Assembly: GCA_950295325.1 (NCBI GenBank) | Contig: OX485804.1 | Span: forward strand, 42,582,429-42,646,428 | Direction: 5' to 3' | Length of the DNA: 64,000 nt | Origin: Polytrichum commune | Taxonomy: Eukaryota > Streptophyta > Polytrichopsida > Polytrichales > Polytrichaceae | In this document: piece after piece, positions 14,566 through 49,398 of the stretch | Layout of the letters: each line of letters begins with the position of its first letter | How positions within the stretch are numbered: the first letter of the stretch is position 1 | The notes under the pieces: generated by a model | Seen by the model: only the letters and a program-made list of their open reading frames with translations | What the model was told of the DNA's origin: nothing | Database searches by the model: none | Program-made: the position numbers and the translations under genes

Positions 14566-15235
14566 ACACATTGGGATTATGAGGTTGCCATTTCCCATCG
14601 TCTTGGCAAGTCCCCTTTCCTTATGTGGTTGTGTGCATCCTAACATTTCTATAATGGACATATTGTCATGGGTGATTGAAATTTGGATGAAAATTTACTT
14701 GGTAAGTGACATTGTGAATCTATCATAGTCAAATGTTCTTTACGAGGAAAAAATAACAAAAAAATGTTAGGTTTACATTTAGTGTTGGTGACACTACACG
14801 GGCATTTTGCAACTAGTATTGAGCGACGCAAATAGAATTGGTGACACTAAATACAATATTTGGTGTAGTTACGTAGTTCATTACTACATTTGTCACGGTT
14901 GGAGATTTGAAGTTGCCCAATTCATTGATCAGTGTCTAGAATTGGCGTTTTGTTTTAGAGTCTCTACTTGGAGTGCAAACATAGAAGACCATCAATGCAC
15001 ATAGTACCGGGTGAGAAAAAGAAGTTGATCATTTTTACCATGCACATGAATGACGATGTCAATTCCGTGTCGATTCATCTTTGGGTGTCAATGAATTGGA
15101 TGTTATATATTATTTTAAATGCAAGGGATTTGGCAATGCATAAAAACGACACTCACATGTGGGTGAAAACATAAGGACCATCAATGTACCCAACCCTTTT
15201 GTACCCGATGAAAAAATACATTATCATGTTACCAT

Positions 15236-15420
15236 CTTTGCAATTTTTCTTTTCTTTTATTTATTTGTTTATGTAATGGAAATGAGGCGTGTGTCCACTT
15301 GGCTAGTTCCTCCGTCACATAGAGAGAAGCTTCCACGGTCGGGAATTGAACCGCCAACCACTCCATTTGGTTTTGGGTACTTGTCCACTATCATCCAGTA
15401 GTTTAAGGTCATCTCGAACC
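15236..15420 (-). mobile_element. tRNA-related SINE, copy A
   Basis: Read on the minus strand it starts GGTTCGAGATGACC, has an A-box-like GGATGATAGTGGACAAG, a B box GGTTCAATTCC, a shared body (CTCTCTA..., GGACACACGCCTC) and an A-rich tail (AAATAAATAAAAGAAAAG). The flanks repeat TTACCAT (15229-15235 and 15421-15427), a short target duplication. The neighbouring array unit reads continuously if the element is removed. The RNA polymerase III promoter boxes point to a tRNA ancestor; mobility by a partner LINE is known for the class and inferred here. Confidence 0.8.
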
Positions 15421-15717
15421 TTACCATGCATGCGAGTTACGGTGTCAATTCCCGGGCGATTTGTTTTCAAGTGTTCACAACGAATCATACTATATATAGC
15501 ACTTGTAAGGTTCATTTACCACCGGACTAAAGGGTTTGACAATACAAGAGGACGAAGGAAAGAGACTCATTTATGGGTGAAAAACATAGGGGACTATTGA
15601 TGTCACAACCCTTTTTGTACTTGGTGAGGTAAGAAAATGATTTGATATTAACTTACCGTGCACGTGAATCACAAATGTCAATTCTCCATCGATTTATCTT
15701 CGAGTGTTCACAATGAA

Positions 15718-15994
15718 GTATGAGATGACCATAAACTACCGGATGATAGTGGAAAGGTACCCAAACCGAACGGAATGGTTGGCGGTTTGATTCCTGACCA
15801 TGAAATTGTCTCTCTACTCAACGGAATAATAATAACAACTTCGGTCTCCGAAGGAGACCGACGTGAATTAAGTGTCTGTTCGATCTACCTTCAATCCCAA
15901 GCCCACAGGACAGAGTCTACTCAACGGAAAACTAACCAGATGGTCAAGCGCCTCATGTTGTCCAAAAAATTTATTAAAAAAGAAGAAGAAAAAA
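15718..15994 (+). mobile_element. tRNA-related SINE, copy B, with a nested insertion
   Basis: Same family as 15236-15420 and 42801-42979. It carries the A-box-like GGATGATAGTGGAAAGG, a B box GGTTTGATTCC, the body ending GGTCAAGCGCCTCATG, and an A-rich tail (AAAAAAGAAGAAGAAAAAA). It is flanked by a perfect 12-bp target duplication, GTTCACAATGAA (15706-15717 and 15995-16006). Length is 277 bp because a second element sits inside at 15827-15915; without it and its duplication the SINE is 174 bp. The perfect duplication implies a fairly recent insertion. Confidence 0.88.
15827..15915 (-). mobile_element. 89-bp retroposon-like insertion nested in SINE copy B
   Basis: It is flanked by a perfect 14-bp duplication TCTACTCAACGGAA (15813-15826 and 15916-15929), present once in the expected SINE sequence. 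On the minus strand the 3' end is GTTGTTATTATTA, preceded by a strong hairpin CGGTCTCC-TTC-GGAGACCG. A short 3' repeat tail plus a hairpin resembles the 3' ends of some SINEs or of 5'-truncated LINEs. I do not recognise the family, and no promoter boxes are clear. Confidence 0.7.
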
Positions 15995-16143
15995 GTTCAC
16001 AATGAATTGGGTCTATCATAGCATTATAGTTCATTTGCCATCGGATGTAGAGGTTTGACAATGCAAGAAGATGAAACAAAGAGAAACTCATTTACAAGTG
16101 AAAATGTAGGTGACCATCATTGTCACTTTGTATCCAGTGACAA

Positions 16144-16255
16144 GAAAATAAAAGAAAATATAACGCCCGTATATCATACCGGCATGAATGTGAGCCCGTT
16201 AACCTTGTACTGATCATGGTTCCCGTGATGCAGTATAGGGCGTTATGCTTCCTTT
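16144..16255. mobile_element. 112-bp structured insertion with 13-bp target duplication
   Basis: It is bounded by a perfect direct repeat TATCCAGTGACAA (16131-16143 and 16256-16268). Inside, ATAACGCCC and GGGCGTTAT near the two ends can pair to close a stem. The left side is A-rich (GAAAATAAAAGAAAAT) and the right side ends CTTCCTTTT. This suggests a retroposed small structured RNA or a SINE-like element. Orientation is unclear: the A-rich end suggests minus, the terminal T run suggests plus. A stretch ATCATACCGGCATGAATG vaguely resembles the start of 5S rRNA; this is weak. Confidence 0.6.
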
Positions 16256-16440
16256 TATCCAGTGACAACAAAGTTACAATATCACCATGCATGTAGTTAC
16301 GATGGTGTTGATTCCCCATCAATTTGACTTCAAACAATCAAAACAAATTAGACCATGTATAGCGTGTTAGTTCATTTGCCATCGGAATTAAGGTAGAGGT
16401 TTGACAACAAAAAATTGTGAAAGAAAGGTTACGCTCCTTT

Positions 16441-17090
16441 TACTGAACACATGAGTTGTAAATCTATTGCCTAGTTGTGAGTATATGGCCAACAAGATTT
16501 ATGGGGAAGGGACAATGATGAAAAAGGATGTCGTGTGTACATTAGAGTTTACCATAAAGTCACAAAATGTTGGGCCAAAACCTTCACTTTTGAAGGACTC
16601 TACCATATTTGCCACTTCTTACATCCGTATGTGCCATGGACCTAACATGTATTTAAAGTAAATCTAGACATACTTTCAAAATTTAGACATTTTGGTTGTT
16701 TTAATTCAATGGGTCGATCCATTGATACACCTCAATTTTGTGGGAGATATGTGAATCCTTAGTGATCATTTCAATGTTATATCATTAAAATATGATGGAA
16801 ATATTATTTTTGTTAATTTTGTAAAATTATATATTTAATAATGAAAATAAAATAAAAAACAAGTGCTATAATATTATCTTGATCGACTCTGCATATTCTA
16901 TCGTAGGATATTACAATAGAATTGTATGGTGAGAATTCAACATGTTAGGCTCACGAATTTGGACTTAGTCCATTTTCACTTAAATGTCATACACCTAATT
17001 CAAAGTTATGTATGAAATTGCATTGTATTCAATGGACTACGATGCAAGAGGGGTCTCAAAACATGTGATGATAGAATCCATGTTTTAATG
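16441..17090. other. Intergenic, nothing recognised
   Basis: AT-rich sequence without a supported gene, array or inverted-end element. Confidence 0.5.
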
Positions 17091-19985: not shown

Positions 19986-21541
19986 TCACTTAAGATCCAT
20001 ATACCTACATCCAAATCCGTATCAAGGGGCCCTTGCATCTATTCTAAAAAAGTTGTGACTCATTGAGGAACACATAGCATTATTGGAGTTTCACAAGAGT
20101 GTTCCACGGGGACGAGAATCAAAGGCAATTTTATGCAAGCATCAAGGGTCACGTAAGAGGATATTGGGGAAAAAAAAGAAAAAGAAAAAGAAAAAAGGAT
20201 CATTGGTGTTTAATATCACCGGCTTGATAAATGAACATGTTCACTTTCTACTAATTATGTTGGTCATGATGCAATATATGGTTTAGCGCCTTCCTTTCGG
20301 AAGGTGGGCTTTGTGGTTTGAAGGATATTAGGATGTTTTAGGCTTGGTCAAGAATGTAGGAAGGCCGCCTCCAATCATAGAGTACATGTGTTAAACTTAT
20401 GAGAGTTGGTTGTTTATGACCAACATCATAGTAAAAGAGGGCCTTGCATTCTACAAGTCGAGACTTAGTTGAGATATACAAACAATATTAAGGTTTATAT
20501 TAAGAGTGCTCCATGGAAATTGGAGTCAAAGGTACTTTCTTGCAAGCATCGAAAACCACGCAAGAGAGAATCGGGCAAATTTAGGTCTCGTTTTGAGAAT
20601 GTACGAAGGTTTTTATGTAGTACAATAAGTTAGGTTGCAATGGAGTGAGGACTAATATACGAGCTTACCGTTTTGAGTATGCTTGGCATTCATAGAAACG
20701 AGAACCCTAAATATGTGGAGATTTATCATAACACTTGTGGAGGTTCGCATGATTCTTCGTGGATGAATTCATACATGCCTAATGTAGATCATGTTATGAT
20801 GGTTTATGTGAGCACTTTCCTTGCCCGCCTCTTTGACCCCCCCACCCCACCACGGTAGGGTCTCTCTTGGAGTTTAGACCAAGACCATGTCCAATTTGAT
20901 TCTCCGCATTGAATCTTAACAAAACGGTCGTTGTAAGGATCTAGTCCCTTCAAGAAAACCCGACATTGGCTAGGTCAAGTGTTGTTTGCCATTGTCAAAG
21001 TTGATTGTTTGTGTTTCCAAGTAGCCAAACGCAAAAAAACAAAGCTTGTATCCCTTGAAAAATATACTTTGGGGTGTGTTAACATCCTTACTAATGCGAT
21101 AACCCTCTTTCAAATACAAGCTTTGGGACAAATGAAACAACTTTTCTCAAAGGTGAGTCCAATTATATTGGATTTTGTAACCTATATTTGTACCCTCTTT
21201 TGCAAGTTTTGTGTTCATTTGGTTGCATGTGTGTTTAATAAGAAACAAGTTCGTATAACTTATTATACATAGCAATTACATAACCATGATCAGTGTACGA
21301 CAAACGGGCTCGCATCCACGTTGGTTTTGGAACACAAATGTTTTTTTTTTCTTTGTCTTTCTAGAAAATCAAATACAACTCCCATTGACAAATGGAGCAA
21401 TGCCAATAAGTTATGTCAAGGAGTATGAATTCCTTATGAGTGTGTCTATACTTGTTTCTTCAAAGAATGTTAATCTTCATACTTCTAAGTTGCATATGAA
21501 AAAGTACATAACTTCCATAATATCCTATGTGTCACACATTC

Positions 21542-42800: not shown

Positions 42801-42979
42801 CTTTTTGTTTTTTGTTTTGTTTTTGTTTTGTTTTCCTTTTTTGAACATAAGAGGCGCTTGACCACCTTGCTAGTTCATGTAGAGAGATGATTTCACGACC
42901 AGGAATCGAACCGCCAACCACGCCGTTCAGTTTGGGTACCTCTCCACTATAATCTGGTAGTTTAGGGTCATCTTGGACC
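42801..42979 (-). mobile_element. tRNA-related SINE, copy C
   Basis: On the minus strand it reads GGTCCAAGATGACCCTAAAC, A-box-like AGATTATAGTGGAGAGG, a perfect B box GGTTCGATTCC, CATCTCTCTACATGAACTAG, GGTGGTCAAGCGCCTC and then an A-rich tail (AAAACAAAACAAAAACAAAA). The flanks share GAATTRTG only, so the target duplication is uncertain. It lies only about 25 bp downstream of a MITE. Confidence 0.82.
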
Positions 42980-48430: not shown

Positions 48431-48858
48431 ATTATATGTTATTCCATAATGTCACATGCTGCACTAATTCTCTTTTATCACACATCTATACTAACACTAA
48501 ATAATTTCTTTGTATCACGTGCGCTTTGATTGCCACACACATGATATTACGAAGTTTAGAGGGGTTGGGAATGCTAAGGTTGCAGTAATCCAAATTAGAT
48601 AAATCTAGGCCCCCCTCATAAATTCCTATCCCTCAATACAAAGCCATCTATTTTGTGATGGTTGTGTGTTGGGTATGGTGAGAATGCTCACAAACCTTAA
48701 AGACCAATAATAAATTATGGTAGATGTGTGTTTACCTACCGCTTGAGGATTCTAACTTGCACGCATTTGCGTAGACTTTGGTGGAGAGACGACACAACAA
48801 AAGGAGGGAGCACAATGATGTTGGAAATGGAGAAGGGGAGACACGATGGATTGTTGTG

Positions 48859-49398
48859 AACTCATGCTTCCTTGCATGGCATTCGTACGTGGAATTGGGT
48901 GGAGATGCTAAGAGCTTTCCATTGATCCATTATGGGTTGGTTGTTTCAAACTCATGCTTCCTTGCATGGCATTCGTATGTGGAATTGGGTGGAGATGCTA
49001 AGAGCTTTCCATTGATCCCTTATGGGTTGGTTGTTGCAAACTCATGCTTCCTTGCGTGGCATTCGTATGTGGAATTGGGTGGAGATGCTAAGAGCTTTCC
49101 ATTGATCCATTATGGGTTGGTTGTTTCAAACTCATGCTTCCTTGCATGGCATTCGTATGTGGAATTGGGTGGAGATGCTAAGAGCTTTCCATTGATCCCT
49201 TATGGGTTGGTTGTTGCAAACTCATGCTTCCTTGCGTGGCATTCGTATGTGGAATTGGGTGGAGATGCTAAGAGCTTTCCATTGATCCGTTACAGGTTGG
49301 TTGTTGTGAACTCGTGTTTACTTGCATGGCATTGGTATGTGGAAGTGGTTGGAGATGCTAAGAGCTTTCCATTGATCCGTTATGGGTTGGTTGCGGGA
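48859..49398 (+). repeat. 90-bp tandem repeat, six units, continuously open
   Basis: Units start at 48859, 48949, 49039, 49129, 49219 and 49309. Units 1/3 and 2/4 share variants (ending HYGLVVS or PYGLVVA in translation), showing a 180-bp double unit that was itself duplicated; units 5 and 6 are more diverged. The frame 48778-49419 (213 codons) stays open because 90 is 30 codons and the unit lacks stops. No known domain. Single diverged units lie in the neighbouring blocks without an open frame, arguing against a real protein. Confidence 0.93.

Follow-up and report, generated by a model that had tools for sequence, protein, structure and literature searches.

Two old SINE copies and two LINE 3' ends nested in a degenerate tandem array of a plant-like genome

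Three described kinds of retroposon come closest to the locus analysed here: the tRNA-derived plant SINEs, the LINEs carrying endonuclease, reverse transcriptase (RT) and RNase H segments, and the stringent 3'-end LINE/SINE pairs, to which the T-tailed plant SINEs p-SINE and Au can be added (PMC3747384). The review just cited notes that no partner LINE has been identified for plant SINEs whose tails are T-rich, and it is for this reason that the nest of insertions presented below is of mild interest. The SINEs of the nest resemble the tRNA-derived plant SINEs in size (about 175-185 bp), box A/B-like motifs, A-rich tail, dispersed copies and target duplications (9 of 17 copies), a likeness judged by general class features and not by comparison to named families. 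Its LINEs have the same segment order (endonuclease-like, RT, RNase H), 5' truncation and target duplications as other EN-RT-RNase H LINEs, but differ by a PCIF1-like segment between RT and RNase H and by TTA or pyrimidine tails. With the stringent pairs and the T-tailed SINEs, as described in PMC3747384, the locus has in common a folded 3' end (in one LINE family, T) and non-poly(A) tails; here, however, the tails are on LINEs, and no SINE with the tail of either LINE family (N or T) was established. The nest links "small elements" with LINEs that reside in their own genome, and a plant-like genome with TTA- or pyrimidine-tailed LINEs is a place to test tail recognition.

In the window (the whole stretch of DNA analysed, 64,000 nucleotides), four insertions lie inside 1 kb of a degenerate tandem array, each flanked by an exact target duplication (7, 12, 14 and 13 bp). 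These features, together with a third SINE copy elsewhere in the window, are:

14930..16440, no strand: host tandem array, from repeat families and unit alignment; source of the empty-site sequence
near 14930-15034, 15035-15420, 15421-15651 (intact), 15652-16283 and 16284-16440: array units, from unit alignment
15229..15235, second copy 15421-15427, no strand: target duplication of SINE A, TTACCAT (7 bp)
15236..15420, minus strand: SINE A, tRNA-type, with an A-rich 3' tail on the 15236 side; from alignment with B and C, box score and dispersed copies
15706..15717, second copy 15995-16006, no strand: target duplication of SINE B, GTTCACAATGAA (12 bp)
15718..15994, plus strand: SINE B, into which the 89-bp LINE stump has inserted, duplicating its target; from alignment and box score
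15813..15826, second copy 15916-15929, no strand: target duplication of the 89-bp stump, TCTACTCAACGGAA (14 bp)
15827..15915, minus strand: 89-bp element inside SINE B, 3'-terminal end of LINE family N with tail TTGTTATTATTA; from identical copies elsewhere and LINE continuity
16131..16143, second copy 16256-16268, no strand: target duplication of the 112-bp stump, TATCCAGTGACAA (13 bp)
16144..16255, minus strand: 112-bp element, 3'-terminal end of LINE family T with structured domain and pyrimidine-rich tail; from 40 scored copies and the consensus fold
42803..42979, minus strand: SINE C, third copy of the family, lacking the 89-bp insert; from alignment with A and B

The array is built of degenerate units of about 230 bp, of which only 15421-15651 is intact; it is absent from the output of Tandem Repeats Finder and becomes visible by aligning units. 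All four duplications were re-found in the sequence where the initial annotation had placed them. When spans of the same lengths were drawn at random positions in the window (4000 draws per element, 2 nt of slack allowed), a repeat of equal or greater length occurred at frequencies of 0.004 for SINE A, 0.0005 for SINE B, 0.0025 for the 89-bp element and 0.00125 for the 112-bp element. This null is conservative because random spans include the window's own tandem arrays.

Given the tandem-array setting and the fact that TTACCAT, found three times in 14900-16450, is also a motif of the array unit junctions, the duplications could be common array sequence rather than footprints of insertion. The SINE A duplication is for that reason the weakest of the four. 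The other three strings nevertheless occur exactly twice each in 14900-16450, both times at element borders, the 14-bp duplication lies within SINE B and so outside array sequence, and SINEs A and C do not have the 89-bp insert. We therefore regard the array explanation as very improbable, and the nest, as first proposed, as retroposed insertions with target duplications. The nesting order (array, then SINE B, then the 89-bp element) can be read directly, as had been deduced earlier, since SINE B without the 89 bp aligns end-to-end with the insert-free SINEs A and C; it sets the order of these three only and leaves SINE A and the 112-bp element out of the sequence of events.

We then searched a 408-Mb assembly of 64 contigs (C1 to C7 being 42-78 Mb) for each element, and for all four found copies in other flanks, a check that the initial annotation had proposed. 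All counts given here refer to the 40 best-scored places per search and not to all candidates; shorter stumps are undercounted because a copy that does not span the whole query falls in the ranking.

First, the SINE search gave 1746 first-look candidates. All 40 of the best, which were scored, matched, with identities of 79-86% excluding the query's own place (100%), and from this divergence between copies the family is old. SINEs A, B and C, once the 89-bp insert is removed from B, align end-to-end and have box A/B-like motifs 37-38 bp apart. Scored against the Pol III box A and box B consensus motifs, they reach 20, 21 and 22 out of 23, respectively, a value attained by 6, 0 and 0 of 2000 shuffles each. 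ARAGORN made calls in the SINE head at low threshold only, with anticodons differing between copies, and none in the window at default settings. In the 17 copies fetched, the alignment begins at one common 5' position; nine of them show a near-perfect duplication and eight do not. In the corresponding control, chance repeats arose in 9 of 180 trials for the nine copies with an observed duplication; the overall figure is 169 of 340, 160 of these coming from the eight copies lacking one. For SINE C, the random-span test used on the nest elements found no exact duplication; by eye, its flanks are the imperfect GAATTGTG/GAATTATG. By alignment, box scores and dispersed copies, A, B and C belong to one old, dispersed, tRNA-type family with Pol III-type boxes. 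This A-tailed SINE may use a third retroposition machinery, beyond LINEs N and T.

Second, all 40 scored places in the 89-bp search were 98-100% identical over at least 82 of the 89 bases, and 12 of them (the window's own and 11 others) were letter-identical over the full 89 bp. Upstream of the 89 bp, 33 of the 39 fetched other copies run at least 55 bp into one common LINE sequence. More precisely, of 27 loci with 400-800 bp of upstream sequence, 24 go on for at least 400 bp into one LINE and three stop within 6 bp; of 12 further loci with about 100-120 bp upstream, nine go on for at least 60 bp and three stop at -11, -21 and -49. The short copies (7 of 40, own included) start as follows, +1 being the start of the query:

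+1: the window's own copy, and L020
-6: L034
-11: L091
-21: L095
-49: L090
without duplication: L031

Independent events are fewer than copies, because L009 and L015, on two contigs, have identical flanks, and a single 3' flank is common to L013 and L014. One short copy, L031 (C3:20476004-20477196), has the 89-bp 3' end with upstream sequence unrelated to the LINE; a search for its target duplication found none. It was considered as a SINE with an N-type tail and dropped, as the box scan gave no pair and ARAGORN nothing.

Three copies of LINE N itself, an element longer than 7.6 kb, could be aligned along about 7.7 kb and are 90-96% identical. None of the seven long loci inspected (L048-L054) showed a complete open frame: L049 and L054 had no 150-codon frame, L050 and L053 contained part of the LINE only, and L048, L051 and L052 had several split frames. 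Its coding segments follow the order endonuclease-like, RT, PCIF1-like and RNase H, with matches to RVT_1 (E 1.3e-29), a PCIF1-type family (E 2.1e-9) and RNase H (E 1e-13); the endonuclease match is weak and falls short of the curated cut-off (E 6.4e-4). Among the PDB entries matched by the RT piece are R2 and LINE-1 ORF2 proteins. The nested 89 bp is, on this continuity, the 5'-truncated 3' end of a young LINE, and the term "active" used in the initial annotation would best fit the 89-bp family, given the 98-100% identity among its 40 scored places. Folding of the 89-bp strand was no better than that of shuffles (z -0.97).

The PCIF1-type (PF12237) stretch sits between RT and RNase H (L051:4966-5643, plus strand, for the match quoted above); its match passes the curated cut-off in three loci, L051, L052 and L053. 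NPPF is the motif of PCIF1; it was not seen in the LINE stretches printed, and LINE N copies read GYAHPHN after FGSLG. The L053 piece gave no match to any PDB chain, and none of the literature matches listed concerned LINE-borne PCIF1 domains, by which we do not claim that none exists.

Third, the 112-bp search returned 858 first-look candidates, the best 40 of which are 85-95% identical to the query, with the element's own place at 100%. These 40 copies were read with 1.5 kb (30 copies) or 130 bp (10 copies) of upstream sequence, and 27 of them, six judged by eye, extend for 80 bp or more as part of a LINE, family T, that is akin to N. In one T-type LINE, L111, the upstream sequence gave RNase H (E 1.5e-14) and a weak PCIF1-like match (E 1.5e-4, below the curated cut-off). 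At least these two related families, N and T, contributed to the nest. The initial annotation had invoked an unseen LINE; LINEs are in fact visible, as N and T end in the 89-bp and 112-bp sequences, respectively, and the nest holds stumps of both. Of the "at least four small elements" described at first, SINEs A and B stand, as members of one family, but the 89-bp and 112-bp elements are 5'-truncated LINE 3' ends. Neither has the promoter head that a SINE sharing a LINE tail would carry in front of that tail, as nothing lies between the duplication and the LINE 3' end in the nested copies.

The 112-bp element has a stable fold (z -4.3), and its arms, 16148-16168 and 16238-16258, are 86% complementary, as would be expected of a MITE-like DNA transposon with near-inverted-repeat ends. 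However, LINE sequence lies on one side only in the 27 long copies, target duplications among T copies range from 7 to 34 bp instead of having a fixed length, and a variable pyrimidine or TA-rich tail repeat is present on one side only. MITE identity is thus refuted by LINE continuity and has hardly any credibility left. A likeness to 5S rRNA, spotted by eye, was also rejected, Rfam giving no 5S match.

The fold is a property of the LINE T 3' end. The consensus fold of 24 sequences (22 of the 30 loci L059-L088 and two relatives from the window) has 26 pairs, and at eight of these at least one sequence has changed on both sides while keeping the pair; covariation is modest, its term being -0.56 of -23.58 kcal/mol. 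Such a fold would suit 3'-end recognition by the LINE enzyme. The two window relatives lie within 6 kb of the nest:

21261-21361, plus strand: older relative of the 112-bp LINE end (E 6.6e-5)
20196-20297, minus strand: older relative of the 112-bp LINE end (E 0.006)

The second has near-matching flanks by eye (AGGATATTGGG/AGGATATTAGG).

The LINE 3' ends carry TTA-repeat or pyrimidine-rich tails and not poly(A). We also noticed that the tail unit varies between near-identical copies, being (TTA)n or CT-rich in LINE N (L097-L100 vs L009-L035) and a repeat of TTTTC, ATATT, TTTAA or TTTAT in LINE T (L059-L088).

Taking these observations together, we propose that the nest very probably arose by four independent target-primed reverse-transcription insertions into an old array, two of old tRNA-type SINE copies and two of LINE 3' stumps stopped after about 100 nt; it is, in short, an ordinary record of retroposition. 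Target-primed reverse transcription from the 3' tail fits because the tail is at one end, its repeat is variable, the duplications vary in length and the copies are 5'-truncated. For the LINE stumps, reverse transcription would start at the 3' tail, with the LINE RT probably recognising the 3' domain (in T, the conserved fold) and the TTA or pyrimidine-rich repeats, and copying would halt once about 100 nt had been made, close to the 5' boundary of the 3'-terminal domain. A stop at this boundary could reflect a preferred RNA end or early loss of processivity; we favour the latter to explain the short forms.

The start points of the short copies bear on this choice. Thirteen of the 40 T copies (own included) are short, stopping between -61 and +12. 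Five of them start at +1 (own, L060, L062, L067 and L070), with five different duplications of 10-13 bp, and the remaining eight at -61, -22, -12, -5, -2, +4, +6 and +12. The sequence nearest to a short T copy is another short copy in six of nine cases and a LINE copy in three, with small margins. In a tree of the 40 copies, short and long ones are mixed, with nine label changes, at least three of them forced by strongly supported branches, and 113 of 500 shuffles give as few. The mixed tree points to a repeated origin of short copies from LINE RNA.

Alternatively, the 89-bp and 112-bp sequences could be small non-autonomous elements in their own right, that is, a short RNA whose 5' end is fixed and that carries the LINE 3' recognition domain, retroposed as a unit. 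The five +1 starts in T with their separate duplications and the frequent short nearest neighbours would agree with this, as would the two of seven short N copies (own included, of 40) that begin at +1 and the absence of any stop between 7 and 399 bp upstream among 27 N copies. On the other hand, eight of the 13 T starts are scattered, the short T copies form no lineage, the +1 start of L060 is uncertain by one base, and a query starting at +1 ranks copies without the first bases lower. We thus consider such elements unlikely. Quite doubtful, too, is a variant for the 112-bp form only, in which LINE T RNA would be cut or end at a fixed base in a hairpin loop and the freed 3' domain would be retroposed on its own, a headless SINE-like parasite that several LINE copies would have given rise to recurrently. 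A hairpin CCUCC-CAAA-GGAGG can be read from the T sequence, but it is absent from the consensus fold prediction. The literature matches listed included none on fixed 5' truncation points, without any claim on our side that none exists. Truncated LINE 3' ends remain our preferred reading for both stumps.

Outside the nest, the window holds a COG3 (Golgi complex) gene and, at 48851-49393, six 90-bp tandem units with 94% matches in one 214-codon open frame.
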